A DNA stretch of 64,000 nucleotides from a virus. The notes beneath the pieces are model-generated. The model had not been told where the DNA came from. It saw nothing but the letters and a program-made list of their open reading frames with translations, and searched no databases. The stretch spans positions 1,213 to 65,212 of the IMG/VR virus record IMGVR_UViG_3300037847_003323; one strand, written 5' to 3'. Positions within the stretch are counted from its first letter, which is position 1, and every line of letters begins with the position of its first letter. A program made the translations under genes and the position numbers. Shown here in pieces: positions 5,246 through 30,643 of this stretch.

Positions 5246-5647
5246 ATGCCAGTACAGCGCCAAAGTAAGAAATTTAAGGACATTTCGTCCAGTTTTCAGG
5301 TGAATCCCATCACTTTTGACTTGCTGGCGCTTACAAATGCGAATGCAATTCAACGTTCTATTAGAAATCTTGTTCTTACGGGGCAAGGTGAGCGATTTTT
5401 CCAACCAGAATTGGGTTCACAGGTAAATAATTTACTGTTTAGTCAACTTGATGAGATTACAGCATCGCAAGTTAAGGATGAAATTGAAAATGTAATCACA
5501 ATTTATGAACCAAGAGTGGAATTGATTGAAGTTACAGTCAATCCCGACTTCGATACCAATGAATTGAACTGCACAGTGGAGTATAACATCATTGGTGCTG
5601 AGGTAGCACCACAACAGTTAACGTTTGCATTACAGCCGACACGATAA
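5246..5647 (+). CDS. 25: Baseplate wedge subunit gp25
   Basis: The 133-residue length and the sequence pattern fit T4 gp25, a lysozyme-like-fold wedge protein that with gp6 and gp53 forms the core bundle joining wedge and hub/sheath. Family signatures include ANAIQRSIRNLVLTGQGERF and FQPELGSQVNNLLF (about residues 31-65), the 'one-G-E-R-F-x-P' region, then EPRVELIEV near residues 89-97. The stop overlaps the gp6 start (TAATG), matching the known stoichiometric partnership of the two proteins. Transcribed from the late octamer at 5217. Confidence 0.93.
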   Translation: MPVQRQSKKFKDISSSFQVNPITFDLLALTNANAIQRSIRNLVLTGQGERFFQPELGSQVNNLLFSQLDEITASQVKDEIENVITIYEPRVELIEVTVNPDFDTNELNCTVEYNIIGAEVAPQQLTFALQPTR

Positions 5648-7731
5648 TGTCATTAGTAAATTTTTCTGATCTTGATTTCGATCAGATAAAAACGTCCATC
5701 AAGGACTATCTACGCTCTAATAGTAACTTTACAGATTACGATTTTGAAGGATCGAATCTGTCAACGATTATTGATGTCTTAGCATACAACACTTATATTA
5801 CCTCATACAACGCTAACATGTTGTCGAATGAGGTTTTTCTTGATAGTGCAACACTAAGAGAGAATGTAGTCTCCCTTGCAAGGAATATTGGATATGTTCC
5901 TTCTTCAAAAAAGGCAGCATTAGCAAACATTAGTTTTTTTGTTGACACAAGTGCGCTATCATCTCAACCAGAAACGTTAACTGTTAACAAAGGTCCTATT
6001 GCAGTATCTAGACTCTTTGGTGCTGAGAACTATACTTTCAATCTTTTAGATGATGTTACTGCAACGGTTTCTAACCAAGAAGCATCTTTTGATAATATCT
6101 CTGTATATGAAGGAACATACGTTACTACTAAGTTTACAGTAGACTCATTCGATCCGAATCAAAGATTTATCTTACCTAATGCTGGTATTGATGTCTCTAC
6201 AATCAGAGTTGATGTAAAACCATCAGCAACTTCGTTAATTAAGAGGAAATATATTCAGGCAGATAGTTTATTCGATGTAGGTTCTGAATCGCCCGTATAC
6301 TGGGTGCAGGAGATTGCAGACGAGAGATATGAACTTATCTTCGGTGACGGTGTATTTGGAATTAAATTAGACGCACCTTCGGAGATTGAAGTTGCTTATC
6401 TGGTTACAAATGGAGAAGGTGCAAATAATATTACAGGTTTAGGTTGGATTGGTAAGGTTACTTCGGCAAGAGGTGGTAATACTATCCTTGCTCAGGTTTC
6501 TCCACTGACTAGTGATGCACCATCATTTGGTGGAAAGAACATTGAAAGTGTTGAATCTGTTAAGAAGTATTCTTCCAGAATCTATTCATCACAGTTCAGA
6601 GCAGTTACTGCTGCTGATTATGAAGCAATCATTCCAACTGTCTTCCCTCAAGCAGAATCTGTTGCTGCTTTTGGTGGAGAAGACTTGACACCACCACAGT
6701 TTGGTAAGGTATTCATCACGATTAAACCAATCAATGGCTCTTACCTGTCGATTGCAAGTAAGGAAAATATCAAGTCTTCAATCAGACAATACTCTGTTGC
6801 AGGTATTGTACCAGATATTATTGATTTAAAATACCTTTATGTAGAACCAGAAGTTACAGTATACTACAATCCAAATAGAGCATCCTCTGCTGCTGATGTT
6901 GGAACCATCGTCAACTCCAATGTAACCAGGTATGCTGCATCAGAGGAGATGAATAAGTTTGGTGCAAGGTTTAAGTATAGTAAGTTCTTGAAGATTATTG
7001 ATGATAGTTCAGTTGCTATCACATCAAACATCACAACAATCACCATGAGAAGGGATTTGAGAGTGGTGTTAAATAGTTTTACCGAATATGAAATCTGTTT
7101 TGGTAACAGATTCTACATTAAGAACCACGGACACTCTGCAATGAGCGGAGTTGGATATAATATCAAATCCTCTGGATTTAATGTGAGTGGTATCGTTGGA
7201 ACTGTTTATTTGGCAGATGTGCCAAACAGAGGATTTGAAACTGGTGTAGTCAATTTGATTCAGTTAGATTCTCCTACAGAACCAAAGGTTGTTAGAAGTA
7301 ATGTAGGAACGATTGATTACATTAAGGGAGAAGTTAGACTATCTCCAATTAATATTACAGGAACAGTTTACAGTGATGTATATCCTTTGATTGAAATTTC
7401 AGCAGTTCCATATTCAAATGATGTGATTGGACTTCAGGACTTATATCTACAGTTAGATGTAAGGAATAACAATATCGTTAACTTACCTGACAACATTGCA
7501 TCTGGTAATGATATTTCTGGAAGCAACTATCTGGTTACATCTAGTTTTGCAAATGGTGAATTGGTTCGTGGACCTGTTCTACTTGCAAATCAAATTTCTA
7601 GAGAGACTGCTACAACCTTGAATAGAAATATCAATCGCTCTCGTACTACCAGCACTCAAACAACCAGTGCAACTACACAGTATACATCAACCCCAATAAA
7701 CACAACCTCAGGCGGAAGTTCTTCCTATTAA
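5647..7731 (+). CDS. 6: Baseplate wedge subunit gp6
   Basis: At 694 residues it is close to T4 gp6 (660). The N-terminus (SLVNFSDLDFDQIKTSIKDY) followed by DYDFEGSNLSTIIDVLAYNT and 'LSNEVFLDSATLRENVVSLA' is the typical gp6/gpJ-like baseplate wedge signature. A central segment (about 295-360) carries SSRIYSSQFRAVTAADYEAI, also characteristic. gp6 dimers form the inner baseplate ring and interact with gp25 and gp7. The C-terminal 40 residues are Thr/Ser-rich and probably flexible. It starts on the gp25 stop and ends nine bases before the giant gene. Confidence 0.92.
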   Translation: MSLVNFSDLDFDQIKTSIKDYLRSNSNFTDYDFEGSNLSTIIDVLAYNTYITSYNANMLSNEVFLDSATLRENVVSLARNIGYVPSSKKAALANISFFVDTSALSSQPETLTVNKGPIAVSRLFGAENYTFNLLDDVTATVSNQEASFDNISVYEGTYVTTKFTVDSFDPNQRFILPNAGIDVSTIRVDVKPSATSLIKRKYIQADSLFDVGSESPVYWVQEIADERYELIFGDGVFGIKLDAPSEIEVAYLVTNGEGANNITGLGWIGKVTSARGGNTILAQVSPLTSDAPSFGGKNIESVESVKKYSSRIYSSQFRAVTAADYEAIIPTVFPQAESVAAFGGEDLTPPQFGKVFITIKPINGSYLSIASKENIKSSIRQYSVAGIVPDIIDLKYLYVEPEVTVYYNPNRASSAADVGTIVNSNVTRYAASEEMNKFGARFKYSKFLKIIDDSSVAITSNITTITMRRDLRVVLNSFTEYEICFGNRFYIKNHGHSAMSGVGYNIKSSGFNVSGIVGTVYLADVPNRGFETGVVNLIQLDSPTEPKVVRSNVGTIDYIKGEVRLSPINITGTVYSDVYPLIEISAVPYSNDVIGLQDLYLQLDVRNNNIVNLPDNIASGNDISGSNYLVTSSFANGELVRGPVLLANQISRETATTLNRNINRSRTTSTQTTSATTQYTSTPINTTSGGSSSY

Positions 7732-7740
7732 TGGCGTAAA

Positions 7741-10700
7741 ATGATATCAACAGATTCTCAAAGAGTACAAGTCCAGGATGTAGTCGGAACTCAACTTCCA
7801 TCCTTCGTGAGGGATGACTTCCCTCTAGTCGTAGAATTTTTAAAGGAATATTATGTTTCTCAGGAATATCCTGGAGCATCTGTTGACTTATTGAATAATA
7901 TTGATCAGTATGTAAATCTTACCACATTAACGAGCAATACTAATACTACTGAGACATCTTCAGCAGTTAGTATTGGTGATGATACCATTTCTGTGTCTTA
8001 TAATATTCGTGAAGGTATCTTAGGAACATATCAGTTCCCCGACAGAAATGGACTGATTCAAATTGATGATGAAGTTATTCTATACAGAGAGAAAACAACC
8101 ACAAGTTTCCTTGGTTGCGTTAGAGGATTCAGTGGTGTTACCTCATATAAGAGTTCAACGCCAGATAAATTAACTTTCACAGACTCAGTAGTAGCACAGC
8201 ACGATAAAGGTTCTACTGTAAAGAATCTGAGTGCGTTAATTCTCAATGAGTTCTTACTTAAGTTCAAGAGGCAGTTTGCTCCAGGATTTGATGAGAGAAC
8301 TCTTGCTCCTGAAGTAAATGAGAAGTTATTTGTATCTGAAGTAAATTCCTTCTACAAAGCAAAGGGAACAGACAATTCCTTTAAGATTCTGTTCAAAGCA
8401 CTCTTTGGTGAAACCGTAGAAGTATTACGTCCATCGGAAAATCTCTTCAAACCTTCCGATGCAAACTACAAGATTACAAAAGATGTTGTAGCAGATTTAA
8501 TCTCTATCGATGGAACTGATGTTGACAGTTCTGAAAGAACACCATTAGATTTAAAAAATCAAACATTATTCCAAGATGGATACGGAAATGTAACTATCGG
8601 CACTGATAAGACTGCAAAGTATGATATTGAAAATGCATCTGCAACTATCAGTGATGTAGAAAAAGTTTTTGAAGGCGGTAAAGAATATTGGAAGTTATCT
8701 CTTGGATTTGGATACTCTAGAGACACTCCTGTCGATGGAACTATCTTTGGTGACTTTACTATCCATCCTAAGACTAGAAACTTAAATTCAGTTTCAGCGG
8801 GTGCTACTGCCATTGACGTAGATTCTACACTTGGTTTCCCAGAGTCTGGAGAACTGGCAGTAGTCTATGATAGTGGCGATGCTGGCATTGTAAGTTATAC
8901 TTCTAGAACTGTAAACCAGTTCCTAAGTGTTGATGGAGTTTCTCAAGAACTTACAAGAAACTCTGATTTGAGATTGAATGTATCTGCATATGCATATGTT
9001 GGTATTGGAACTACAACAAGAATTGATTTAAGAATTGGTGGTGTTTTAGATGAAGTTAAAATTACATCCCCCAAAACTTATAACTTTACCGATGAAGACG
9101 TTGCAAGAATCAGTTCTCTTGGCATCACGACTGACGTACCTACTTCGTACAGTTGGATTTACAACATTGCTCCAAGTTTTGAAGTTGAGAGTGCAGTACA
9201 AATTAACTCCGACAACATCACATACAGAATCACTACTACGGTGCCAAATGATTTCATTAATGGCACTAGGCTTTTATTCGACTCTAACGGGCAGCAGTTT
9301 GAAGCGAACGTTTCTAGCGTATCAAATGACAGGACTTTTACTGCCGTTACTGGAAGATTAATTACAGTAAACTCTGTTACTGTTCAAAGGGTAGCAACTA
9401 GAGCATTTATCGATCCTAACTACTCTTCTCAGAGTGGTGGTGCAGAAAATACTCTTACCGATGTATCCAATGTTTATGTTACATCTGATGGAAAGTCTCT
9501 GGTAGCAGCATCCTCCATCCCATACTATGCATCCAATCCTCTTCAGACTAACAAGAGGCAGTCCATCCTGAATGGTGCATACTCTGGAGATACTTTCACA
9601 ATTCCTCAGCATGGATATTATAGTGGCGATGCTCTTTACTATGAAAAGTCCAGAACTTCCACAACAGTTGAAGGCGTTAAAGTAGAAACTGTAAATGGAT
9701 TTGATAATCTGTTTGAAAGAATCTACTACGTTAAAAGAGTAAACGATAATCAAATCAAACTGGCAACAAGTCAGTCTAACCTTTACAATAACAATTTTGT
9801 TTCAGTTGATGGAACTGTAACTAATAACAAGTTATATCCATCTGAATTCCAAGGAAAAGAACTTAACAACCAAAGACTTCTTAGAAAGTTTGAGACTCCC
9901 GATGAAGAGTCTGGAACATACCCCACCCAACCAGGTGCCAAAATTGGTATGTTAATTAATGGAGTTGAGATTCTCAACTACAAAGCAAATCAATATTGCT
10001 ACTATGGAACCCTGGATGGCGTAGATGTTTCAAATCCTGGTAGCGACTATGATGTTATTAATCCACCCCTTCTTGTAATTAATGATGCTGTAGGAACAGG
10101 TGCAACTGGTGTTGCTGCTGTTAGAGGAAACTTAGACAGTATTCAAATTATTGATAGCGGTTTTGACTATGTTGAGGAACCAATTATCACTATCACTGGT
10201 GGCAATGGTAGAGGTGCGGTAGCAAAAGCGAATACAATCTTCATTGATTATGCTGCATCTGTTAATGCAGAGAATCCAAATCGAATTGCTATTGGTGGTT
10301 CTGATACTGTTGGATTTACAACATTCCATAAGTTCAGAAATGCTGAGCAAATCATCTACAAACCAGATGGACAAACTGGAATTGTTGGATTGGTAACGGA
10401 TGCGAAGTATTATGTTCAAACTGTTGATGCATTCACCATCAAACTGTTTAAGAATGAGGGTGATGCAATCACTGGTTCTAACGCTATTGGATTAACTGGA
10501 CTTGGAAAAGGAACTCATAGATTCCAGTCAGTTAATAAAAAGCGTATCATCTCCAACATTTTTGTTGAAGATTCTGGCGAAGGATATGAAAATAAAGAAA
10601 GAAAGATTGGTACAGTTGGTATTCTGACTGCATCAAACTATATCAACATTGAGAATCATGGTTATTCTTCTGGTGAACGTGTTCGCTATTCATCTACAGG

Positions 10701-13700
10701 TGATGTAGCAGAACCCCTTGCAGCAGATACATCTTATATCGTAACTAAGGTTGATAATGATAATTTTGCTCTGTCTAGCGTTGGACTTGGAACAACAGGA
10801 GCAAACTTCTACTATGACACAAATCAGTACATTGATATTGCCACACAAGGAAGTGGAGTTCACTCATTCAACTATGAACCCATCACCGTAGCAGTTACTG
10901 GCAAAATTGGAGTAACTACATTTGCTGGACAAGATTCTTCTACATTCAATGCAGTAATTCAACCCCTCTTCAGAGGCACCCTGGAGAGCGTACAACTGAC
11001 TTCAAACGGAGTTGGGTATGGTTCTTCCGATATCATTGGATTTGATAGACAACCTAGAATTTCTGTGTTCAGTGGACATGAAGCAGAACTTCTGCCCGTT
11101 GTAAGTAATGGAAGAATTCAAGAAGTTCTTGTAGTTAAGTCTGGTAGTGGATATAATTCTGCACCACACTTGAAAGTTAGTGGATTGGGTAAGGATGCAA
11201 TTCTAACTCCTGTTCTACTCAATGGCGCTATCGATAGAGTCGTCATTCAAAATGCAGGTGTTGACTACACTGAGGATACAACTGTAGCAGTTATTCCTAG
11301 TGGTACTGGTTCGGTATTTAATTCTAAGATTCAAACCTGGAATGTAAACCTATTCCAGAAGTATTTTGACAACATTACTGAAGATGATGGTATCTTAGAA
11401 CCAGGATTGAATTCGGATTATGGCATTCAATACACTCATGTGTATGCTCCAAGAAGTTTAAGAGAATCTGTTTTCAGCAAATCTGCAGGCAATAACACTG
11501 AATTTGGAACACCAGACTTACTTAAGTTAAATGGACTTGAGCAAACCTCTGAAAATCATTCTCCTATCTTAGGATGGGCATATGATGGCAATCCAATTTA
11601 CGGACCTTTTGCATATAACACAACCACTGGTGGTTCCATCAAGGAGATGAAGTCTGGATATGAGCGTATCACCAGAGCAAATCGTCCCGCTGCTTTCCCT
11701 CTAGGTTTCTTTGTTGAAGACTTTGAGTATAAGGGCACTGGAGATTTGGATGAGCACAACGGAAGATTCTGTGTTACTCCAGATTATCCAAACGGAACGT
11801 ATGCATACTTTGCCACAATCGGCATTGTAATTGATGGTTCAGGACCTTTCAGAAATTATCGTCCACCTCAGTTCCCATATCTGATTGGTAATAGTTTCAA
11901 TAACAAACCAAATCAATTTAACTTTGAATTTGATTCAAATCAGGATGTCTTTGATTTGAATAATAGCGAATACTTTAGAAATGTCACACCATATAAGATG
12001 AACTCTTCTGGTGTTGACTACAAGTATCTGCTTCAACCAAACAAAGTAAAGAGTCCATCTATTACTATCAATGATACTAGAAAAGGTAGTATTGAAACCG
12101 TTGGCATCTTAACTGGTGGTAAGGGTTACCAAGTAGGAGATAAGATTGTATTTGAATCTGTTCTCGAAAATATTCCAGTAATTCCTGCAAGAGCAAGAGT
12201 TGGTAGAGTTTTAGGAAAACCCGTAAGCACTGTTAGTGTAGCATCATCCATTATTGACAACCTTGAAGTTGTACCTAATGGAAAAAATTACGTTGCATTC
12301 TCAACAGCACCCAACTTATTCTCAACAAGAGAGGTTGTAACCGTTGCTGGACTATCTACTGCAACTTCTACTATCAGTGGAGTTCATAGAGTTGGAGTCA
12401 ATTCCTCGTTCTTTAAACTGATTAACGCTGTCAGTGACTCAGATTCAACTGGTATCGTAACCTTCTTCAATATCTCTGGTGAGATTCTTGATGACAAGTT
12501 TAATATCAGAGAGAATGATATTTTTGCCGTTGGTGCAGAGAATGTCAGAATTCTCAATATTGATTCCTTAAGTTCTAGAGTTAGAGTTCTTCGCTCTGTA
12601 AATGGAACAGTATCTGCTGCACATACTGCAACTACTAGTGTAATTGAAAGAAGCAGGAAGTTTAGTTTCACTCCAACGCAAGTTGAAAACAAAGTTACGT
12701 TCAACTTAAACAAAGAATACTATTTCAATCCCCTCGAAGCATTAGGAATTGGAACTGAAAGTGGCGTTGGTGTTGGTGTAACACTTTCCTTTGCAAACCC
12801 AGGTGCAGGTAAGACACAACTCTTCATTCAAACAAGAGCAATTTATCTTCCTAACCACCAACTTCAAACTGGAGACATTCTTAAGTACAACACATATGAC
12901 GGAGATTCTATTGGAGTCTCTACAGTTGGTGCTGCAAATACATTCCCACTTCCAGAGTTTGTATATGTTGCAAGAATCTCCAACGATTTGATTGGCATTT
13001 CAACAGTACAAGTTGGACTTGGTGCAACCGGTACGTTCGCTGGTATTGCTGCTACAACCGCAAATGATGGCACTTTGTATTTTGCTGGTATTGGAACAGG
13101 TGTATATCACAGTTTCACTACTCAAAAGCAAAACGTTGTAACCGCAGAAGCATACAAAAACGTTGTTACAGTATCCACAGGTGAAACACATGGACTTTCA
13201 GTTGGCGACAACGCTTTCGTTGATTTATCTGCAGGGGTTACAACAAGCATTACCGTCAAATACGATGATGCAAATAGAAGACTCGTCTTCAATCCTAAAG
13301 CATTTGTTGCGGGTAATGTAAACATTGTTGAAAATAGTATCACACTTACTAGTCATGGACTAAGCACTGGTGATAAAGTTATCCATACAGCATCTACTGC
13401 GTCTGGTGGATTAGTAGATGGCAAAATCTATTACGTCTTCAAGAACAGCAATGATACTATTAAGTTGTGTCTCACTAGACACGATGCTCAAAAATTCAAT
13501 CCAACATTTATTGACATCACTTCTGCAAGTGCTGGAACCCTTTCTCCAATTAATCCACCACTCAGCGTTTATAAGAATGATACAGTTGAGTTTGACTTAA
13601 CCGATTCCAGTCTGTCCTTTGACAGTTCTGGCACTTCATATCCTGCATTTAACTTCCACTTATTCAGTGATGCTAATTGCACAAACAAGTTTGTTTCTAC

Positions 13701-16700
13701 AAAGGTTGATTCTTCCTTTGAAGTTTCTAGCACTGGAACAATTGGTGTTAGCACAGATGCTAAAGTAACCCTCAGAGTTACTGACACTCTTCCCGAAAAA
13801 CTGTATTACAAGGCATCTCCAAGTTCTGAAAACTTCTTGCCCGCAGTTAAGAGTGAAATCATTAATGATTTGGATGTATCGGGACATAATCAAATTCAAG
13901 TCAACGATAGTGTATATTCTGGTGCATATCAAATCACTGGAGTAACAACAAATACCTTTACATACAATACTAACAGTATTCCTGAGAGAACTTCATACAG
14001 CACTACTGATTCTAAGGCAAAGTATGAAACTGATTCTACCAATGCATATGGTGCAATCTCTAAGGTTGATTTCCAATTCAATGGTTCTGGATATCCATAC
14101 TTAGTTGGAATTGCCACTATTGTTGGAGTAAGCACTAACCCTGATAGAAGTGGTGCAATCCTTCTTCCCGATAGCACAGATATCGGTAACATCGTCACTA
14201 CAACAGTTGACGATATTGGATTCGATTACTCTGCAGATAATACTTTACGTCCTACACTCAACTTGCCTGAAGTTCTGTTTGTAGATCCTCTGGTTTCCTT
14301 TGACAGAATTGGTATTACTTCCGCAGGTAAGAACTACACCATTCCTCCTAAGTTGAATGTACTTGATGGATTGACTGGCAATCTTATTACTGACACCATC
14401 ATTGAATATGACATTGGTGATACTGTAGTAAGAATTCCTAAGAACACCAAAGGAATGAGTGATGTAACTCCCACCATCATTCCTACAAACAATGTTAATG
14501 GTATTGCGGTTGGTAGTATTTCTTATGACATCTCCTCTAAGAATGTCACTGTTGGATTAGCAACTGCCTTTAGCGATTCTGCTCCTCTTTCGGTTGGCGA
14601 TAAAGTTCTGATTGAGGGTGTTAGTGTTGGCGTTGGTTCAACAGGAAATGGATATAACTCTAGAAATTATGGATATAAGTTATTCACTCTGACGGATGTT
14701 AACATCCCTCTTGGTGGTGCAGTTGGTGTTGTCACCTACAGTATGGTAGGTGACTTAGATGAAGGTAAGATTGCTGGCAATTTTGATTCTCTGAACTCTG
14801 TTGCACGTATCGTACCTGAGAAGTTCTTCCCACAGTTTGACATTAGACTGAAGAGAAACAACTTCTTGATTGGTGAAGAAGTAACTTCTGGCACTAAAGT
14901 TGGTGTTGTAGAGAACTGGAACAATCAACTGGACTTGCTCAAAGTTGATAGTAAGTTTAACTTCAACGTCGGTGATAGAATTGTCGGTTCTTCCTCTAAA
15001 GCACAGAGTGTTGTGAGAGAGAAGTCTGACTTTATTGCAGAGGCAACTGTTGCTTCTTCTGCTGTCGTCAACAAAGGATGGAGCAGAGAGACTGGTTTCT
15101 TAAGTTATAACACTGAAAGACTCTCTGATAACAACTATTATCAGAACCTTTCTTATTCTCTCAAGTCTAAAGTAAGTCTCGAAGATTGGGACGATGCAGT
15201 TTCCTCGTTGGCACACCCTGCTGGATTAGTTAAGTTTAGCGATCACATCGTTGAAAGTATTGATGAGGACTTCAGAGGTGTATTTACTAAGACATCTGGT
15301 TCTACCATTGACATCATTAGCGACTTGGTTAGTGTAAGCAGTCTGAACTGCTACAATGATTTTGACTTAGTTTCCGAAAACGCTCTCAACATTGATGGAG
15401 AAATCACCTCGACTGAGATTAACTTCCAGTCTAGAGTTCTTACGAATTACTTTGAATCGATTGGCAATAGGGTGTTGACGATTGATGACATCAGCACACA
15501 GTTCAGCAACACCCCACTGCCCAACAGATTTGCGATTGTTGGTGCTTTCAACGCACTGCAGAAGACTAATAAGTTCTTGACATTCGTTCAAGACTCTAGA
15601 TTCACTGATGAAAGACAGACAATGATTGTCAATGTCTTGTCTGATGGAATCACAAATCATATTAACCAATATGGTAGAGTTGAAACAACCTATGATATGG
15701 GAACGTTTGATATTCAAACTCAAGGCACTGAAGGAAAACTTCAATTCTTCCCAACCAAGTTTAGTATCAACAACTTTAACGTAAGTAGCGTTAACATTGG
15801 AATCAACAACGCTGTTGCAAGTATCGGTTCTACCATGCTTGGCAACATCGCTGATATTCAAACATTCCGTCAAACCTCTTCTGGAATCAGCACTGAGATT
15901 GTCAGTTTTGCAACAACTTACCGTTCCGCAAAACTCATGGTTGAGATTGACACTTTCAACGGTGAAATGGAGTTTGATGAAATCAACCTCATTCATGATG
16001 GAACAACAGTTGATATTGTAGAGTATGGTTCTTTAACAAATCAGGGACAAGGAACATTTGTTCCTTCTGGATTTGGAACATACAGTGCTTCTATTAGTGG
16101 CAGCAATGTAAGTCTTGTGCTCAACTCTACTGTCGGTGCAGCATACACTGTCACTTCTCTCGGCATCTTGATGGCAGATGACACTGCAACTGGTGTTGGT
16201 AATACTCTTATCATCGGTAATGCATTTGAGTCAGAGGGTATTCTTGATACTCACTTCACATCCCTTTCATCCTCTGCAACTCCTGGTATTCATACCATTG
16301 CTACCTATAATCATGACTTACCCAATAGATTCTCTGCAGCGTATTATGTAATCAGTATTGAAGACACTACCAACAATGCATATCAAATTTCTGAGTGTAT
16401 TGTCACTAATAACAGCACTGACGCTTACATCTCAGAGTATGGTACTATTGCAACTAACGTTGGTGGAATTGGAACTATTGGCGTTCTTCTCACTTCTGCA
16501 GACACATTCCTCCAGTACACACCACCTGCAAGTGCAGATGTAGAAGTACGTGTCTTACAACTTGGTATCGGTCCCGTTGCTGGAATTGATGATGGAACAT
16601 CTGTTGACTTGAACAACGGAAGCATTACAGGTTCCTTCGGTAACTATAGTGGAACAAATGTTACGATTAAGAGAGCATTTGACTTGAAGCATGGTGGCAA

Positions 16701-19700
16701 GACAATTTTCTCTAGAGAATTTAATCCCACTGAAACTGATATCATCGACTTGGAGAACAATACAGTTCTTCTCCCAGAACACTTCTTTGTCACTGGTGAA
16801 GAAATTGTATATGACTTCCCCGAAACCGCTGGTGCTGAGGGTGTTGGAATTGCAACAACTACATTCTCTGGAATCGGAGCAACTTCCGCATTGCCAAGAA
16901 ACAATATCTCGATGTTCGCTGTCAAGGTTGACTCTAAGCACATCAAGGTTGCAAGAACTGCAGAAGATGCCCTGAAATCCACTCCTGTTGTCATTGACTT
17001 GACATCAGTTGGTGTAGGAACAGGACACAACTTTATTGCAAAGAATCAGAACACCAAGTGTTTGGTTGCACTTGATAACATGATTCAATCTCCCGTTACT
17101 AAGACAACTGTAACATCTGGATTGACTACATCCATTCAATTGACTGATGTCATCATTAAGATGAGTGGAATCTCTTCGTTCTTCGGTGGAGACTTGATTC
17201 AGATTGATAATGAAATTATGAAGATTAACACTGTTGGTATTGGAAGCACCAACTTTGTTCTTGTTGAACGTCCTTGGATGGGAACAGAAGTTGCTATTCA
17301 CACTGAGGGTGCATCTGTAACTAGAGTTTCTGGTTCTTATAATATTGTTGACAATACAATCAACTTCTACACCGCACCTCAAGGTCCTACTCCAATTAGT
17401 AGCACGACAAATGCACCTGATTCTAGAGACTTTACTGGTATTACCACATTCTCCACGTTCCAAGGAAGAGCATTCCTGAGAAGTGGAACTGAGGGTGGTT
17501 CTGATAGAACTTACAACACTAACTACATCTTCGATGATATTTCTGAAGACTTTGATGCTACAACTAAGACATTTACACTTAAGTCTAACGGAGACAATGT
17601 TGTTGGATTCAAGACTGATAATGCAGTCATTCTTATCAATAATATCTTCCAGAGTCCAACTGGAGATTTGACTACCAATCAAGATTACACTCTCACTGAA
17701 GGTTCTGGAATCTCTAGTGTTACATTTACTGGAACAGCAACATCTCTGGCATCAGATCCTAACAATGCATCTATTCCAGTTGGAGGAATCATCGTTTCTG
17801 TTGGTTCAACTGGAGGATTTGGTTATCAACCATTGGTTGCTGCTGGTGGAACTGCCATTGTTTCTACCGCAGGAACAATCACGAGCATCAGCATCGGAAG
17901 CAGTGGTTCTGGTTACAGAGTTGGTATTCAAACAGTTGTTAATGTTGGAGTTCAAACTTCCAGCACTGGAAAACCCAACATTCAGTTTATTGGAACAGCA
18001 GCAGTTGCAAATGGACAAGTTGTTAGTGTTGCGGTTACAACTGGCGGTTCTGGATTCTCTCAAGGTTCTGAACCAATCGTTGTATTCGATCAACCACTCT
18101 CTTACTCTGGAATTGCGCTTACATATGCTGCAGGCACCTCTGGATTTGGAACAGAAGCAACTGTCGATGTAATTGTTGGACAAGGTTCTAGCGTCATCGG
18201 ATTTGAAATTAGAAATACTGGATATGGATACGGACAGGGTGAGACATTAACCATCGGTACAGGTGGAACTACAGGAATTCCTCTCGTATCTGGTTCAACT
18301 CTTGAAGAGTTCCAAATCACGATTGATAGAGTTCAGTCTGATTCTTTCAATGCATGGCACTTCGGTGAACTTCAGGTTCTTGACTTGGTTCACGATCAGT
18401 TTGATGGAATCAAGCGTTCCTTTACTCTGAAGACTAACGGTTCTCCTGTTACCATTAGGGCAACTGCAGGTTCTCAGGTTGATACTCAAGCAACACTCTT
18501 GGTATTCTTGAACGACATTCTGCAAGTTCCTGGTGATGGATATAGTTTCGATGGTGGTAGCACAATCACATTCGCAAGTGCTCCTAGAGGCAGATCTGCT
18601 GATGGATACTTTGGTGGTGATAAGTGTAAGATTCTCTTCTACAAGGGAACGGGTTCTGTAGACGTTAAATTCAGAGAAGTTCTTCAAACTGTTAAAGATG
18701 GCGATACTGTCGTCATCAAGAGAGGTTCTGCAGAGCAAAGTGAGCGTCTGGTTGATGAGGTTGTCTCTACCGATCAGATTAGCACTGAAGCATACGTTGG
18801 ATTTGGTATTGATGGCAACCCTGATAACAAGCGTTCCCTCCAATGGTGCAAGCAAACTGAAGACAAGATTGTCGGTGGAAAGGTTGTCAGTAAAGCAAGA
18901 GTTCCTAATTCTGGAAACATCTTCCCAACCACGCACATTATTCAATCTGTCGGTGTTGGTTCTACAAACGCATACGTCGAAAGTGTATCTACATTCTTCA
19001 ACCCTGCAAATGAGAACACCACATCTGCGAAGACTCAAACAATTGATTTGACATCTCAAGATGTTATCGTCGGTGCTGCTGCAACTGCGGTTGTATCTGC
19101 TGCAGGAACTATTTCATCTATCGTCATCGGGGTTGGTGGAACTGGTTATACAAGCGCACCTGCAGTTACCATTGCAAATCCTGTTGGACTTGGAACAACT
19201 GCTCGCGCAACCGCAACTGCAACCCTCACTGGTGACACTGTATCTGCCATTACAGTTTCTACGCCTGGAGTAGCATATACCAGTGCAACTCCACCTGTAG
19301 TTCTGATTGAGAATCCTCAGACAATCAGTGAAGAAAATATCTCAAGTCAGTATCTTGGGGACTTTGGTGAAATTGTCGGAGTCACTTCAACTTCAGTTGG
19401 AGTTGCATCTACAGGATTCGTCTTTGACTTCTTTATTCCTATTGACTCTGCTCTAAGAGATACTAATCTTGTTGGTGCTGCAGTCACAGTTAGTGGAATC
19501 AATGCTGGAGATTATTTCGTGGTAAATAGTAGCAATGTTGGTAGTGGTGTTACATCCCTCTATCAAAATGGTGCTACCCTTGGTGTAACAACACAATTCC
19601 TGGATAGCGTCTATGAAGTCGCTGCTGTTTCTACTGCAACAACTGCGGTAGCAGGAGTTGGTATTACATATGTAAGAAGAGTAACTGTAAGCGTTGAAGA

Positions 19701-19887
19701 CTTAGGAGACATCACTGGAATCGGACTTACCGAATTCTATGGAAACTACTCCTGGGGAAGAATTGATTTGGGTACAAGAGTCAGTGCTCAGGCATTTAAC
19801 GCCTATACACTGAACGGTTCTGCTGGTGTTTCTACCTCAGCAGTCGTTACTAGATTGTCTCCTCTGAAGATTCAAAACTATTCATAA
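7741..19887 (+). CDS. 7: Giant gp7-like baseplate wedge protein with YHYH-like domain (4048 aa)
   Basis: This 12.1-kb frame occupies the gene 7 position. Two segments resemble the C-terminal part of T4 gp7 as I remember it: FYKAKGTDNSFKILFKALFG (about 204-223) and SLKSKVSLEDWDDAVSSLAH (about 2473-2492). In T4 these lie about 100 residues apart, here about 2270, so a large insertion is inferred. The insertion has a YHYH-type domain (about 1275-1375; ILGWAYDGNPIYGPF and DLDEHNGRF, but AYF in place of the YHYH tetrad), many GSGY-type repeats, and repeats of the form HGxxxGDxVxY. The last 1500 residues add more beta modules, including two copies of a phage-fibre type 'FLNDILQVPGDGYSF' unit. The protein is all beta, low in Cys and Lys, and probably forms part of the external wedge. 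Start ATG 7741 follows the gp6 stop by nine bases. Confidence 0.85.
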   Translation: MISTDSQRVQVQDVVGTQLPSFVRDDFPLVVEFLKEYYVSQEYPGASVDLLNNIDQYVNLTTLTSNTNTTETSSAVSIGDDTISVSYNIREGILGTYQFPDRNGLIQIDDEVILYREKTTTSFLGCVRGFSGVTSYKSSTPDKLTFTDSVVAQHDKGSTVKNLSALILNEFLLKFKRQFAPGFDERTLAPEVNEKLFVSEVNSFYKAKGTDNSFKILFKALFGETVEVLRPSENLFKPSDANYKITKDVVADLISIDGTDVDSSERTPLDLKNQTLFQDGYGNVTIGTDKTAKYDIENASATISDVEKVFEGGKEYWKLSLGFGYSRDTPVDGTIFGDFTIHPKTRNLNSVSAGATAIDVDSTLGFPESGELAVVYDSGDAGIVSYTSRTVNQFLSVDGVSQELTRNSDLRLNVSAYAYVGIGTTTRIDLRIGGVLDEVKITSPKTYNFTDEDVARISSLGITTDVPTSYSWIYNIAPSFEVESAVQINSDNITYRITTTVPNDFINGTRLLFDSNGQQFEANVSSVSNDRTFTAVTGRLITVNSVTVQRVATRAFIDPNYSSQSGGAENTLTDVSNVYVTSDGKSLVAASSIPYYASNPLQTNKRQSILNGAYSGDTFTIPQHGYYSGDALYYEKSRTSTTVEGVKVETVNGFDNLFERIYYVKRVNDNQIKLATSQSNLYNNNFVSVDGTVTNNKLYPSEFQGKELNNQRLLRKFETPDEESGTYPTQPGAKIGMLINGVEILNYKANQYCYYGTLDGVDVSNPGSDYDVINPPLLVINDAVGTGATGVAAVRGNLDSIQIIDSGFDYVEEPIITITGGNGRGAVAKANTIFIDYAASVNAENPNRIAIGGSDTVGFTTFHKFRNAEQIIYKPDGQTGIVGLVTDAKYYVQTVDAFTIKLFKNEGDAITGSNAIGLTGLGKGTHRFQSVNKKRIISNIFVEDSGEGYENKERKIGTVGILTASNYINIENHGYSSGERVRYSSTGDVAEPLAADTSYIVTKVDNDNFALSSVGLGTTGANFYYDTNQYIDIATQGSGVHSFNYEPITVAVTGKIGVTTFAGQDSSTFNAVIQPLFRGTLESVQLTSNGVGYGSSDIIGFDRQPRISVFSGHEAELLPVVSNGRIQEVLVVKSGSGYNSAPHLKVSGLGKDAILTPVLLNGAIDRVVIQNAGVDYTEDTTVAVIPSGTGSVFNSKIQTWNVNLFQKYFDNITEDDGILEPGLNSDYGIQYTHVYAPRSLRESVFSKSAGNNTEFGTPDLLKLNGLEQTSENHSPILGWAYDGNPIYGPFAYNTTTGGSIKEMKSGYERITRANRPAAFPLGFFVEDFEYKGTGDLDEHNGRFCVTPDYPNGTYAYFATIGIVIDGSGPFRNYRPPQFPYLIGNSFNNKPNQFNFEFDSNQDVFDLNNSEYFRNVTPYKMNSSGVDYKYLLQPNKVKSPSITINDTRKGSIETVGILTGGKGYQVGDKIVFESVLENIPVIPARARVGRVLGKPVSTVSVASSIIDNLEVVPNGKNYVAFSTAPNLFSTREVVTVAGLSTATSTISGVHRVGVNSSFFKLINAVSDSDSTGIVTFFNISGEILDDKFNIRENDIFAVGAENVRILNIDSLSSRVRVLRSVNGTVSAAHTATTSVIERSRKFSFTPTQVENKVTFNLNKEYYFNPLEALGIGTESGVGVGVTLSFANPGAGKTQLFIQTRAIYLPNHQLQTGDILKYNTYDGDSIGVSTVGAANTFPLPEFVYVARISNDLIGISTVQVGLGATGTFAGIAATTANDGTLYFAGIGTGVYHSFTTQKQNVVTAEAYKNVVTVSTGETHGLSVGDNAFVDLSAGVTTSITVKYDDANRRLVFNPKAFVAGNVNIVENSITLTSHGLSTGDKVIHTASTASGGLVDGKIYYVFKNSNDTIKLCLTRHDAQKFNPTFIDITSASAGTLSPINPPLSVYKNDTVEFDLTDSSLSFDSSGTSYPAFNFHLFSDANCTNKFVSTKVDSSFEVSSTGTIGVSTDAKVTLRVTDTLPEKLYYKASPSSENFLPAVKSEIINDLDVSGHNQIQVNDSVYSGAYQITGVTTNTFTYNTNSIPERTSYSTTDSKAKYETDSTNAYGAISKVDFQFNGSGYPYLVGIATIVGVSTNPDRSGAILLPDSTDIGNIVTTTVDDIGFDYSADNTLRPTLNLPEVLFVDPLVSFDRIGITSAGKNYTIPPKLNVLDGLTGNLITDTIIEYDIGDTVVRIPKNTKGMSDVTPTIIPTNNVNGIAVGSISYDISSKNVTVGLATAFSDSAPLSVGDKVLIEGVSVGVGSTGNGYNSRNYGYKLFTLTDVNIPLGGAVGVVTYSMVGDLDEGKIAGNFDSLNSVARIVPEKFFPQFDIRLKRNNFLIGEEVTSGTKVGVVENWNNQLDLLKVDSKFNFNVGDRIVGSSSKAQSVVREKSDFIAEATVASSAVVNKGWSRETGFLSYNTERLSDNNYYQNLSYSLKSKVSLEDWDDAVSSLAHPAGLVKFSDHIVESIDEDFRGVFTKTSGSTIDIISDLVSVSSLNCYNDFDLVSENALNIDGEITSTEINFQSRVLTNYFESIGNRVLTIDDISTQFSNTPLPNRFAIVGAFNALQKTNKFLTFVQDSRFTDERQTMIVNVLSDGITNHINQYGRVETTYDMGTFDIQTQGTEGKLQFFPTKFSINNFNVSSVNIGINNAVASIGSTMLGNIADIQTFRQTSSGISTEIVSFATTYRSAKLMVEIDTFNGEMEFDEINLIHDGTTVDIVEYGSLTNQGQGTFVPSGFGTYSASISGSNVSLVLNSTVGAAYTVTSLGILMADDTATGVGNTLIIGNAFESEGILDTHFTSLSSSATPGIHTIATYNHDLPNRFSAAYYVISIEDTTNNAYQISECIVTNNSTDAYISEYGTIATNVGGIGTIGVLLTSADTFLQYTPPASADVEVRVLQLGIGPVAGIDDGTSVDLNNGSITGSFGNYSGTNVTIKRAFDLKHGGKTIFSREFNPTETDIIDLENNTVLLPEHFFVTGEEIVYDFPETAGAEGVGIATTTFSGIGATSALPRNNISMFAVKVDSKHIKVARTAEDALKSTPVVIDLTSVGVGTGHNFIAKNQNTKCLVALDNMIQSPVTKTTVTSGLTTSIQLTDVIIKMSGISSFFGGDLIQIDNEIMKINTVGIGSTNFVLVERPWMGTEVAIHTEGASVTRVSGSYNIVDNTINFYTAPQGPTPISSTTNAPDSRDFTGITTFSTFQGRAFLRSGTEGGSDRTYNTNYIFDDISEDFDATTKTFTLKSNGDNVVGFKTDNAVILINNIFQSPTGDLTTNQDYTLTEGSGISSVTFTGTATSLASDPNNASIPVGGIIVSVGSTGGFGYQPLVAAGGTAIVSTAGTITSISIGSSGSGYRVGIQTVVNVGVQTSSTGKPNIQFIGTAAVANGQVVSVAVTTGGSGFSQGSEPIVVFDQPLSYSGIALTYAAGTSGFGTEATVDVIVGQGSSVIGFEIRNTGYGYGQGETLTIGTGGTTGIPLVSGSTLEEFQITIDRVQSDSFNAWHFGELQVLDLVHDQFDGIKRSFTLKTNGSPVTIRATAGSQVDTQATLLVFLNDILQVPGDGYSFDGGSTITFASAPRGRSADGYFGGDKCKILFYKGTGSVDVKFREVLQTVKDGDTVVIKRGSAEQSERLVDEVVSTDQISTEAYVGFGIDGNPDNKRSLQWCKQTEDKIVGGKVVSKARVPNSGNIFPTTHIIQSVGVGSTNAYVESVSTFFNPANENTTSAKTQTIDLTSQDVIVGAAATAVVSAAGTISSIVIGVGGTGYTSAPAVTIANPVGLGTTARATATATLTGDTVSAITVSTPGVAYTSATPPVVLIENPQTISEENISSQYLGDFGEIVGVTSTSVGVASTGFVFDFFIPIDSALRDTNLVGAAVTVSGINAGDYFVVNSSNVGSGVTSLYQNGATLGVTTQFLDSVYEVAAVSTATTAVAGVGITYVRRVTVSVEDLGDITGIGLTEFYGNYSWGRIDLGTRVSAQAFNAYTLNGSAGVSTSAVVTRLSPLKIQNYS

Positions 19888-19917: not shown

Positions 19918-21477
19918 ATGTCAGCAATCATAACTGATCAACTTCGTATTTTAAATGCAAAGGAGTTTGTTGCTAGTGTTGCGTCCACTAGCAACTCTTA
20001 CTATACCTTTGTAGGTTTGCCTAATCCTACGGAGGTTAGTTCCACATGGGATACGGCACCTCCTGATCCGAAGGACAATTTCAATGAAGAGAATAGTTAT
20101 TGGGACACAATGATTGCTCTCAAGAAGATTACATCTTCTGACGTGAAGCAGGTTGTTAGAAAGTTGACATGGGCATCAGGTGTCACTTATGACATGTATA
20201 GAAATGATATTTCTGCAAACAACCCATCTAAGTCAACCAACGCTACCACGTTGTATGCGTCGAATTTTTATATTGTAAACTCTGACTTTAGAGTTTATAT
20301 TTGTCTGCAGAATGGAACTAACCCAGAGAACCCCTCTGGAAGAGCATCTCTGGATGAACCTACTTTTACTGACTTAGAACCAAGAGAAGCAGGAACAAGT
20401 GGTGATGGATATATTTGGAAATACCTCTTTACTATTAGTCCAAGTGACATTATCAAGTTTGACTCTACAAACTTCATGCCTGTTCCCAAAGATTGGGAAA
20501 CATCTACAGACGCAAATGTAGTTGCAGTAAGAAATAACGCTTCCTCTAGTGGACAACTGAAAGTTGTAACTATTACCAATAGAGGTGTTGGACTTGGCAC
20601 TGCTAATAGAACATATACTAAGGTTCCCATTAAGGGAGATGGAAGAGATGCAGAGGCAACTGTTGTAATTAACAATAACTCTAAGGTTGAATCGGTTACT
20701 ATTTCTAAAGGTGGTTCTGGATATACTTTTGGTACTCTTGATTTAGAATCTGGAAACGTTCCAACGGGAACTACTAATCCCACCTTTAATGTAATCATTC
20801 CTCCTGAGGGTGGACATGGTGCTGATATTTACAGAGAACTTGGTGCATTCAACTCTCTGATTTATTCTAGAATTGAAAATGATACTGAGAATCCAGACTT
20901 CATCACTGGAAACCAGATTGCAAGAGTTGGAATCATTCAGAATCCTAAGGCATATGATTCAAGCGAGAACCTTGAATTAGAAAAAGCAGCAACAACATAT
21001 GCATTGAAGTTGACTGGTGCAGGATATAGTTCTGCTTCGTTTACTCCCGATGCTTTGATTACACAAACTATTGGTATTGGTTCTACAGCAGTTGGTAAAG
21101 TTGTTTCTTATGACGAAACAACTGGTGTTCTTAAGTATTGGCAAGATAGAACTCTGGCAGGATTTACGACTGCTGGAAGTGCAGACACAAATCCACAATA
21201 TGGATTCCAACTTCAAAGATTTACTTCCAATATTACCAACGGCGGTTCCTTTGATATTGTAGGTGGTTCCGCCAATCTTGGTATTGATACTAACTTTACC
21301 GGTTTGTCAACGGTAATAAATAGTAGGACATATTATCTCGGTCAAGAGTTTACACAGGGTGTTGCCCAACCAGAGGCACAAAAGTATTCTGGAAATATTA
21401 TTTACGTCGATAATAGACCCTCGATTACTCGTTCCGTGAATCAAAAAGAAGATATCAAAGTCATTTTGCAGTTCTAA
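19918..21477 (+). CDS. 8: Baseplate wedge subunit gp8
   Basis: Clear gp8 signatures are present: GTSGDGYIWKYLFTISPSDI (about 160-179), matching 'GDGYVWEYLF' of T4 gp8, and at the C-terminus KYSGNIIYVDNRPSITRSVN followed by EDIKVILQF, matching the conserved 'GEMIYMENRPPI...INILFTF' ending. The protein is 519 residues against 334 in T4. The surplus is in the middle (about 215-430), where two GSGY-type beta modules are inserted (for example ISKGGSGYTFGTLDL). gp8 dimers link gp7 and gp10 in the T4 wedge. It starts 30 bases after the giant gene and ends seven bases before the next one. Confidence 0.93.
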   Translation: MSAIITDQLRILNAKEFVASVASTSNSYYTFVGLPNPTEVSSTWDTAPPDPKDNFNEENSYWDTMIALKKITSSDVKQVVRKLTWASGVTYDMYRNDISANNPSKSTNATTLYASNFYIVNSDFRVYICLQNGTNPENPSGRASLDEPTFTDLEPREAGTSGDGYIWKYLFTISPSDIIKFDSTNFMPVPKDWETSTDANVVAVRNNASSSGQLKVVTITNRGVGLGTANRTYTKVPIKGDGRDAEATVVINNNSKVESVTISKGGSGYTFGTLDLESGNVPTGTTNPTFNVIIPPEGGHGADIYRELGAFNSLIYSRIENDTENPDFITGNQIARVGIIQNPKAYDSSENLELEKAATTYALKLTGAGYSSASFTPDALITQTIGIGSTAVGKVVSYDETTGVLKYWQDRTLAGFTTAGSADTNPQYGFQLQRFTSNITNGGSFDIVGGSANLGIDTNFTGLSTVINSRTYYLGQEFTQGVAQPEAQKYSGNIIYVDNRPSITRSVNQKEDIKVILQF

Positions 21478-21483
21478 AGAATT

Positions 21484-24400
21484 ATGCCACAGGAAACTAA
21501 TCTCAACGTCGCTCCCTACTTTGACGATTTTGACGCAAACAATGACTATTACAAAGTTCTGTTCAAACCTGGTTATCCAGTACAGGCGAGGGAGTTAAAT
21601 AACCTACAGTCAATATTACAGAGTCAGATTGAAAACTTTGGACAGCACTTCTTTAAAGAAGGTGCCAAAGTAATTCCTGGTAACACTTCATATAGCTCGA
21701 CGTATGATTGTGTTCAGTTAGTCAATACTTATGTTGGAATTCCTCTGTCCAACTACCTTAAGCAGTTAGTAGGTTCAACAATCACTGGAGAATCCAGTGG
21801 AGTAACTGCTGTCGTAGAAGAGTGCCTTTTAGATTCTGAATCTGAAAGAAATAACACAACACTCTACATTAGTTACCTCTCTTCTGGCATTGACGATGCT
21901 CAGAAGACTTTTTCTGATGGAGAACTTCTTTCATCTAGCGCAAACATCGCTACTGGAAGAACAATTATTGGAGCTGGAGAACCTTTCGCTTCAACTATTC
22001 CAACAGATGCAACCACCACAGGTTCTGCATTCTTTATTCAAAACGGAATTTACTTTGCTAAAGGTAATTTCATTCAAGTTGCTGATGAAACCATGCTGCT
22101 CGATCAGTATGGTTCGGAACCAAGTTATAGAATCGGACTGCTGATTACAGAGAACGTTGTAAACTCTGATATTGACGAAACTTTAACAGACAATGCAAGA
22201 GGATTTAACAACTATGCTGCACCAGGTGCAGATAGACTGAAAATCACTGCATCTCTGACTAAGAAAGAATTAACAGATTTTAATGATAGCAACTTCATCG
22301 AACTTGCTGTAGTTCAAGCGGGACGTTTAAGAAGTAAGAAAGAAACTACAAGTTACAAGCATCTTGAGGATAAACTTGCTAGTAGAACTTATGCAGAATC
22401 TGGAGATTACTATGTCAAACCTTTTGACTTAGTAGTTAAGGAATCTCTGAATGATAATGTTGGAAATAGAGGTGTATTTGAGCCAGGACAACTGACATAC
22501 AGTGGTTCTTCTCCTGCAGAAGATCTTGCTCTGTATAAAATTTCTCCAGGTAGAGCATTTGTAAAAGGATATGATATTGAGACTTTAGGAACCACATATC
22601 TTGATTCTCTGAAACCAAGAAGTCTGAAAATTCTTGAAGGACAAGCAATCAATTACAATGCTGGTTCAACTTTCAAACTGAATAGAGTTTTTGGTTCTCC
22701 TGAGATTGGAATTGGAAATACATTTATTCTCAGTCTTAGAGATGCTAGAGTTGGTATTGCATCAACCATTGCAGCTGGTAGTGAGATTGGACTTGCAAGA
22801 GTTTATGACTTTAACTTAGATTCTGGTTCATATAATGCTGCTGTCCCCGACACAAATGAGTGGAGTCTGCGTCTTTATGATATTCAAACCGTAACTGAGA
22901 TTTCGGTTAATGAACCAATCACTCTGACTGTTCCTACACATATTAAAGGTGAACGAAGTGGTGCTACTGCATTCTTGAGGAGTGCTGTAACAGATAAGGT
23001 TTCATTCAATGTTTATGATAAGAGTGGCGACTTCCTTGTTGGAGAATCTTTTATCATTGATGGTGTTGCAAATACTAGAGTTGCAACAGCAGTTACTGCA
23101 TATGGTTTCAGTGATGTCAAATCTGTACATGCCACCACTGGTAGTGGTTCTACAGTAACATACTTCTCTGGTGACACTATTCAAACTTTAGGATTCTCTG
23201 TTGGCGTTTCTTCAATTAGTGGAGAGAGTGGTGGTGTTAGCACCGTAACTAGTGTTAACACCAGATTCCCATCCAACATCAGTGTTGGCAACATTGTAAG
23301 ATTCTCTAACGGAACTTCATCGGATCCTGCATTTGCATCTGTTGTTAGTGTTGCATCTTCTGCAATTGTTGTTTCTGGTGTTACCACTGTTGCTGGTGTA
23401 GCAGATGGAAAACTTCCAGCATCTCAAACAGACTTGTCTGCGTTTGATGTAATGGTAACCAGACAAGATGCGTCTGTTGACAATTCGTTCTTTACTGAGA
23501 TGCCTAGAGCGAATATTGCAGAAATTGACTTAACTGATGCATCTTTGATTATCAGAAGAAGTTATTCGGTTAATATTGCCAACAATCAACTTTCTTCTAA
23601 GGTTGTTGCTGGTAATAATGAGACATTCCAACCATTTGATGTTGAAAGATATACACTTATTCGCTCTAATGGTAAAACTGAAGTATTGACATCAGATAAG
23701 TTTGAACTGACTGTAGGTAACTCTCAGTTGCAACTTTATAACTTGGGTGCAGATGATACTGCTGCTACGCTGGTAGCGACTCTGAAGAAAGTCAATCCTA
23801 AGTCAAAAGTCAAACTCAAGAATAGAGTCAATACCTTAATTGTAGATAAGTCAACTAATGTTGCCTCTGGTATCGGAACCACAACAATTAATGATGGATT
23901 GACTTATGGTAACTATCCATTTGGAACAAGAGTGCAGGACGAATTTATCTCACTCAATACTCCAGATATTATTAAGATTCATGCCATTTATGAGGTAGCA
24001 ACAAACCCTGCTACAGATAACTCAGATCCTTCAGCACCGAAGGCAGTTCTAACTTCTATTACTGGAGCAACAGGGAAAACGACAGACTTAATCTCTGGGG
24101 AAATGCTTGAGGGTGAAGAAAGTGGTGCAATCGCTATGGTTGCCGAAAAAGTTAATGACACAACAATTTCGTTTATCCCAGAAAATAAATTTAACTTTAT
24201 TTTAGGAGAAACTGTCTTCTTCAAAGAGTCTAATCTCAGAGCAGTAGTATCAAACGTCCAGGTTCCTAGTCTTGAAGTTTCTGCAAACTTTAAGTTTAAT
24301 ACAGGACAAAATCCTTCCTTCTATGATACTGGATTCATCACCAAGAGAGAAGGTAAGAAGTCCCCTCAAAGAAAACTGAAGATTTACTTTGAGTCTGGAA

Positions 24401-30642: not shown

Positions 30643-30643
30643 T

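Follow-up and report, generated by a model that had tools for sequence, protein, structure and literature searches.

What takes the place of the wedge protein gp7 in phages from which it has been declared missing? T4 gp7 is a monomer of the baseplate wedge, present in six copies (PMC3004832), that links two chains of gp6 at the core of the wedge (PMC10457771). Its divergence kept it out of the T4 core gene set (PMC3037559), and it has been stated to be absent from pelagi- and cyanomyophages, where it would be substituted by VrlC (PMC7029224). We analyzed a stretch of viral DNA of 64,000 nucleotides (hereafter, the window), which covers bases 1213-65212 of a virus record 93,233 bases long and in which a single uninterrupted frame of 4048 aa lies between gp6 and gp8. 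An initial annotation had proposed that this frame encodes a gp7 homolog split by a large insertion. Here, we ask whether the giant protein is indeed gp7, how its core came to be interrupted and what its additional residues may do.

A giant protein in the gp7 slot

The window carries the synteny gp25-gp6-gp7 homolog-gp8, in which gp6-gp7-gp8 is the T4 order (Table 1). PHROGs places the 4048-aa protein in phrog_2885 "baseplate wedge subunit" (3381 bits), and its nearest sequenced relative by gene start is Prochlorococcus phage P-TIM68, with 48% identity over residues 2-252. A Pfam scan of the protein finds YHYH as the sole domain above cut-off and a weak match to PF23786 at the motif of the first core half (E 0.003). 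The T4 N-terminal domains (1-640) and domain VI have no Pfam match in it, and the whole protein used as a single sequence has no match in the PDB. Elsewhere in the window (42868-45072), the tail sheath protein is 734 aa long; sheath domains match only from residue 471, leaving a long N-terminal part uncovered.

On the strength of the sequence comparisons described below, the protein is almost certainly gp7, from a T4-like marine myophage of cyanophage type, with its core broken by some 2,090 residues of beta modules and its second core half followed by about 1,500 more residues. The first half, A, would comprise the N-terminal helices, the FYxxKGT helix and a domain-V-like piece, and the second, B, the YYQ..SY..KS..W....HPaG segment, the two together forming the gp7 core.

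Table 1. Features of the gp7 locus in the window; residues are those of the protein named, and nucleotide positions are those of the window
Feature	Position	Strand	Basis
gp25 (baseplate wedge, sheath initiator)	5246..5647	+	PF04965 E 1.7e-16
gp6 (baseplate wedge)	5647..7731	+	PF21379 E 3.4e-15, phrog_219
gp7 homolog with split core, 4048 aa	7741..19887	+	phrog_2885; core profiles A and B; slot between gp6 and gp8
N-terminal helices of gp7 core, residues 1-50	7741..7890	+	alignment with compact relatives, themselves aligned to T4 gp7 from 644/647
Small extra beta insert, residues 51-160 (about 110 residues), with M3 copy 1 (70-142)	7891..8220	+	missing from compact relatives in alignment
Core half A with FYKAKGT motif, residues 165-250	8233..8490	+	A profile E 7.8e-32; T4 gp7 profile and PDB matches
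Domain-V-like beta piece after A, residues 251-345	8491..8775	+	hhalign as extension of A
Insertion, residues 346-2438, about 2,090 residues	8776..15054	+	chain 9f4a break point; A-B gap 2212 vs 83-102 in T4 and compact relatives
M1 (HGL.TGD type) copies 1-5: 613-698, 853-930, 961-1045, 1694-1793, 1860-1936	span 9577..13548	+	E 4e-14 to 3e-20
M2 (G.GY type) copies 1-3: 753-821, 1076-1129, 1123-1187	span 9997..11301	+	E 7e-9 to 2e-17
YHYH domain, residues 1200-1400 (Pfam match 1256-1360)	11338..11940	+	PF14240 E 2.7e-26
M2 copy 4, residues 2101-2174	14041..14262	+	E 1e-13
Core half B, residues 2439-2540 (G-W ... D..YYQ.xSY.lKS....W...V..L.HPaG)	15055..15360	+	B profile E 1.1e-24; short-insert-trained profile
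C-terminal tail, residues 2541-4048, three M4 (2612-2700, 2730-2824, 2868-2953)	15361..19884	+	
M1 copy 6, in tail, residues 3002-3099	16744..17037	+	E 1e-17
M2 copies 5-7, in tail: 3375-3450, 3423-3508, 3786-3857	span 17863..19311	+	
gp8 (baseplate wedge), one M2 module at residues 209-279	19918..21477	+	PF09215 E 7.4e-14; M2 E 1e-7
phrog_358 / DUF4815 protein; family labeled VrlC in pelagiphage HTVC008M	21484..28980	+	

Two halves of the gp7 core flank an insertion

The proposal of a split gp7 started from two motifs, and these lie where they had been placed: FYKAKGTDNSFKILFKALFG begins at residue 204 and SLKSKVSLEDWDDAVSSLAH at residue 2473 (HP at 2492), their T4 gp7 counterparts being FYSTKGIEASYKFLFKVLYN at 734 and a segment ending HPVG at 884. 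They belong to A and B, the two halves of the T4 gp7 core (T4 about 644-890). The profile matches of A and B are 2212 residues apart in the window protein and 83-98 apart in T4-like gp7s, and the T4 spacing of about 100 given in the initial annotation was thus right.

Profiles for A (165-250, from eight phages) and B (2462-2520, from seven), both built with T4 excluded, were searched against 1,892 ORFs from 241 loci. A and B co-occur in 177 of these ORFs, always with A before B and with T4-type gp7s among them, where A matches at about 1e-9 to 1e-11 and B at 2e-3 to 3e-2, yet at the correct place. Reversed sequences gave nothing comparable. Among 514 open frames covering about 81% of the T4 genome, gp7 ranks first for both T4-free profiles (A, E 1e-12, next 0.14; B, E 0.0043, next 0.096). 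We also cross-trained the profiles, building them from the short-insert and mid-size relatives alone and testing them on the other groups. The resulting A profile matched 47/47 window-like and 19/19 T4-type ORFs (E 8e-13), and the B profile matched 47/47 window-like ORFs (E 3e-18 to 6e-12; best unrelated ORF 2.9, best reversed 12) and was weak on T4 (0.04 or worse). A and B therefore match the same protein, in the same order, in a gene that occupies the gp7 slot, which bears out the proposed split. Gene fission in the relatives was considered and rejected, as the few ORFs with A alone or B alone look like frameshifts or cut contigs. In two contigs (L030, 5206-11618; L102, 4751-7786) the gp7 frame is broken inside the gene, with A on one ORF and modules or B on the next.

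The window-like profile of residues 1-350 finds T4 gp7 as its best match in the PDB (E 1e-5; next unrelated 0.06), and the window-like profile aligns to T4 gp7 at 724-759 by hhalign (Prob 96.1, E 3.5e-9). Taken alone, the B region of the window clade does not match T4 gp7 significantly by hhalign, nor any entry of the PDB; it is too short for direct significance, so that its link to T4 depends on intermediate families. The profile match to gp7 that had been anticipated for both segments is thus direct for the N-terminal part and reached through intermediates for B. These intermediates include the compact relatives from phage OC and contigs L090 and L091, which align as one piece to T4 gp7 647-890 (Prob 95.6, E 1.3e-8). 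A profile of 34 short and mid-size relatives matched only gp7 chains below E 0.1 in the PDB (2.8e-9 and 4.9e-6), and it aligned to gp7 chain 9f4a in two colinear stretches with a break between gp7 832 and 862, which places the insert after domain V and before B.

By hhalign, A extended by residues 251-345 aligns to mid-size relatives with Prob 99.4 and to T4 gp7 723-813 with Prob 96.4, whereas residues 251-345 alone have no significant match to T4 domain V (Prob 3) and none to Pfam Gp7_5th. Because this domain-V-like piece precedes the insertion, the latter is somewhat smaller than the 2200 residues first given. A duplication of domain V on either side of the insert was also considered and rejected: the piece before B is only weakly like the post-A piece of mid-size relatives (Prob 79, 34 columns), and nothing was found when it was compared with the window clade's own post-A piece or with T4 domain V.

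At the level of structure, the AlphaFold2 model of the compact L090 protein is of low confidence (pLDDT 56), and its only matches to PDB folds at E<0.001 are three gp7 chains (1.3e-11, 4.5e-9, 2.2e-7) from Klebsiella phage KP1 and T4. A gp7 core fold is thus predicted for this compact relative only, from a low-confidence model.

Like T4 gp7 (PDB 5IV5, 5HX2), the window protein follows gp6 and precedes gp8, and it presents a helical core, an FYxxKG motif, a beta piece and an HPxG segment in the same sequence. T4 gp7 differs in that no YHYH, M1 or M2 modules lie in the 83-98 residues between its core halves and in that it carries domain VI and about 640 extra N-terminal residues, the latter absent from all these relatives. 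T4 gp7 is therefore not itself the unadorned form; its N-terminal domains and domain VI are lineage-specific and do not define gp7, given that gp17 of vibriophage XM1 is an ortholog at 242 aa (PMC10457771).

A ladder of insert sizes

The distance between A and B is graded across the relatives. At the short end, beyond T4-type gp7s (83-98), it is 94-102 in OC, L090 and L091, 198 in BUCT-ZZ01 and 258 in IME-SM1; others fall at 339-401, 503-553, 577-750, 801-907 and 1260-1264; and the long end comprises 1861-2334 in window-like contigs and 2722 in Syn33. From tblastn coordinates in one record each, the distance is about 1,550 in ACG-2014j and about 2,710 in S-SM1. The gp7s of Ochrobactrum phage OC (631 aa) and of L090 (449 aa) share the same A and B core at a T4-like spacing of 94-96, and differ from the window protein in having no insert modules between A and B. 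In S-SSM7, a second gene annotated gp7 (SSSM7_103, L003 26087-32732) is without A or B in the part covered, the true gp7 core being SSSM7_101.

In S-B68, where the A-B gap is 1614, B occupies residues 1855-1908 of 1915 and is followed by no C-terminal tail. This position of B at the extreme C-terminus makes the tail a separate addition: the added tail of about 1500 residues that had been reported is present in the window gp7 and is not universal. B also lies near the C-terminus in phiN3 and in many mid-size relatives.

The modules follow the same gradation. M2 is missing from all 19 T4-type ORFs and occurs in 64/78 mid-size, in 33/33 pelagiphage-type and in all 47 window-like ORFs; in the mid-size and pelagiphage-type sets, it always lies between A and B. 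M1 occurs in 10 of the 78 mid-size ORFs, and YHYH and M3 were found only in the window-like set and S-B68 in this group-wise search. Such a distribution fits stepwise accretion. In a tree of the short core (128 columns), window-like proteins group with Syn33 (support 0.99), and most deep branches are weak. The split thus characterizes a whole clade, in which insert sizes form a ladder, rather than one gene, and the ladder, from about 100 to 2,800 residues, shows the site between domain V and B to be a growth point for baseplate ornaments.

The insert and tail are built of repeated modules

Profile self-comparison and module searches resolve six copies of M1 in the window gp7 (five in the insert, one in the tail), seven of M2 (four and three), two of M3 (residues 70-142, N-terminal, and 345-409, at the start of the insert), three of M4, all in the tail, and one YHYH domain. 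The last had been noticed as a YHYH-like domain and is confirmed by PF14240 at 93.2 bits against a curated cut-off of 25; it lies within the A-B interval in 47/47 window-like gp7s and also in S-B68, S-SSM7 and Syn33. The intervening residues had been described as beta modules, in agreement with a model of residues 740-1400 that is predicted to be mostly strands (pLDDT 83, pTM 0.74). This model has no fold match in the PDB at E 0.001, and its partial matches to Uba1 were judged spurious. In BFVD, it matches other cyanophage virion proteins.

Within the window, M2 recurs in gp8, a gp14-like neck protein, a tail-fiber protein and the DUF4815 protein. The neck protein (30635-32035), which PHROGs labels "head closure Hc2," consists of a PF11649 domain followed by three M2 modules; the tail-fiber-like protein (33566-36916, 1116 aa), encoded between the small terminase gene and downstream tail-fiber-like genes, has M2 at 905-971; and the DUF4815 / phrog_358 protein of the VrlC family (21484-28980, 2498 aa) has one M2 near residue 1911.

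The insert is conserved and giant gp7s are found in virions

At 65-85% core identity, insert segments are 57-67% identical and YHYH 67%, compared with 69-75% for B and A. Residues 346-600 are the least conserved insert segment, and the identity comparison revealed no hypervariable stretches in the insert. Evolving nearly as slowly as the core, the insert is better accounted for as a structural part than as a fast-changing receptor-binding tip.

Large proteins of this kind are virion components. In the S-CREM2 virion proteome, ORF122 was represented by 91 unique peptides at 27.2% coverage, with 113 for gp6 and 55 for gp8 (PMC10665884); ORF122 (77594-83407) sits between gp6 and gp8 and is 40.6% identical to S-B68 gp7. 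In virions of S-SZBM1, 71 peptides came from S-SZBM1_208, a 6,619-aa, 724-kDa protein named "baseplate wedge initiator" (PMC9146016).

Discussion

The explanation that we favor, with a probability of about 0.6, is a split gp7 core whose insert and tail act as a peripheral scaffold for docking fibers. The mechanism that we propose, in which A and B meet as a wedge arm and the insert and tail form a built-in scaffold at the rim, has the odds slightly on its side. A and B would come to form gp7's arm in the (gp6)2-gp7 wedge, like the contiguous segment of T4. The insert would exit where related wedge proteins bear a wing or loop holding tail spikes or fibers, and would thereby project to the baseplate rim, where insert and tail would provide a built-in peripheral scaffold and fiber docking platform. 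There, they would replace T4 rim proteins undetectable in these phages: GP11 was undetected in the complete relatives HTVC008M, Syn33, P-TIM68 and S-SSM7 and in the window record (T4 control, E 1e-116), and the gp9/gp10 N-domain gave only weak single matches or none in the same relatives, S-SSM7 excepted. The insert would have grown stepwise, through gain and duplication of modules common to other virion proteins, M2 first and M1, M3 and YHYH later; we propose that it grew at a surface loop of the core because such a loop accepts added domains without upsetting wedge assembly.

This scheme draws on two related wedges. In XM1 gp17 (242 aa), the T4 gp7 ortholog, the core domain comprises residues 1-79 and 107-133, while the internal loop 80-106 holds six tail spikes and the C-terminal part holds the other six (PMC10457771). 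In A-1(L), the long fiber is held by two wedge chains, one contributing an insertion domain and the other its C-terminal loop (PMC10966104). The two appendage sites of XM1 gp17, the internal core loop and the C-terminal tail, are both enlarged in the window gp7; XM1 differs in that a loop of 27 residues binds separate tail spikes, against some 2,090 residues in the window. Loop 80-106 and the insert apparently occupy the same site, judging from the published domain description rather than from an alignment. Since XM1 anchors its tail spikes at this apparently corresponding position, a peripheral scaffold docking fibers would be the likeliest role of the insert. It is likewise plausible that the extra mass is exposed ornament, as the initial annotation had it. 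No solved fold matches the insert model, and fiber docking, exposure and wedge assembly are accordingly inferred.

Could the insert instead be mainly an array for receptor binding or surface gripping, in which lectin-like repeats and YHYH contact the host envelope and contribute to host range? The genome does encode related modules in its tail fibers and neck proteins, cyanophage fibers and lectin-fold proteins are among the BFVD matches of the insert model, and YHYH has been counted as a putative receptor-binding domain (PMC7029224). We nevertheless consider such an array rather unlikely, since neither the insert nor YHYH shows hypervariability at the identities given above, no solved lectin or adhesin fold matches the insert model, and the likeness to fibers holds only at the level of shared modules. 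That the insert carries an enzyme, with YHYH as a metal-dependent envelope hydrolase and gp7 as its carrier, appears less probable still. A zinc site (a histidine triad and an aspartate) and a tail-associated hydrolase role have been predicted for the domain (PMC7824862), and H1273, D1282 and D1337 are the same in all of 41 window-like sequences. Of the two remaining candidate histidines, however, H1233 is present in 35/41 and H1339 in 23/41; moreover, the domain accounts for no more than about 200 of the 2,090 residues and is absent from those short and mid-size inserts that were examined.

A processing protease acts on head proteins in T4-like phages, and giant chains are awkward to assemble, so one could imagine a polyprotein that is cut after translation to release the gp7 core and its ornaments as separate virion proteins. 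Neither a protease domain nor a recurring cleavage motif was noticed in the giant gp7, however, and at the level of the proteome tables, S-CREM2 and S-SZBM1 each show a single large protein. Moreover, with B at or near the C-terminus in S-B68, phiN3 and many mid-size relatives, excising the insert would part the core halves; we regard processing of this kind as highly improbable. An artifact, be it a fortuitous motif match, unrelated genes fused together or an assembly error, might be suspected from the shortness of B and from the many conflicting labels that this locus bears in cyanophages. Yet the A-B order recurs in 177 ORFs on independent contigs as well as in sequenced phages by the hundred, and profiles trained on one group find the others. 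This recurrence refutes an artifactual origin, to which we attach a negligible chance.

These results bear on how the locus is annotated. The VrlC family (phrog_358) and the gp7 core are both present in HTVC008M, phage OC and the window, and this coexistence means that VrlC is not a replacement for gp7. The family shares the baseplate locus with gp7, next after gp8, and differs in being present beside the gp7 core; PHROGs lists its function as unknown, yet the gene follows gp8 in all lineages looked at. Proteins of the gp7 slot are scattered over phrog_2885, 4406, 701, 19630, 18802, 3465 ("head closure Hc2"), 26741 and 17744, under labels that include "head closure Hc2," "head and packaging," "unknown" and "baseplate wedge." The first of these probably leaks to gp7 homologs such as HTVC008M gp055 via M2, which follows a neck domain in phrog_460.

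Many GenBank records say "baseplate wedge initiator," so that giant gp7 as such was already known. phrog_2885 (4179 positions) and the "baseplate wedge initiator" proteins of P-TIM68, S-SZBM1, Bellamy and ACG-2014f belong to the same family as the window gp7 over nearly full length and show no difference in kind, making the latter an ordinary member. The split core, its exact insertion point and the size ladder appear to be new, judging from the openly licensed papers searched.

More tentatively, the loop between domain V and B may be a general insertion hot spot at which T4-like phages build the baseplate rim in one polypeptide instead of from separate gp10, gp11 and gp12, with the size and modules of the insert setting baseplate architecture and fiber docking across marine phages. 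With the gp7 core present in two pieces, the conserved wedge no longer has the gap that had been supposed, and the labels of this slot can be corrected. The graded natural insert sizes offer a test of how an essential assembly protein tolerates more than 2,000 added residues, in phages that are some of the most abundant in the ocean.
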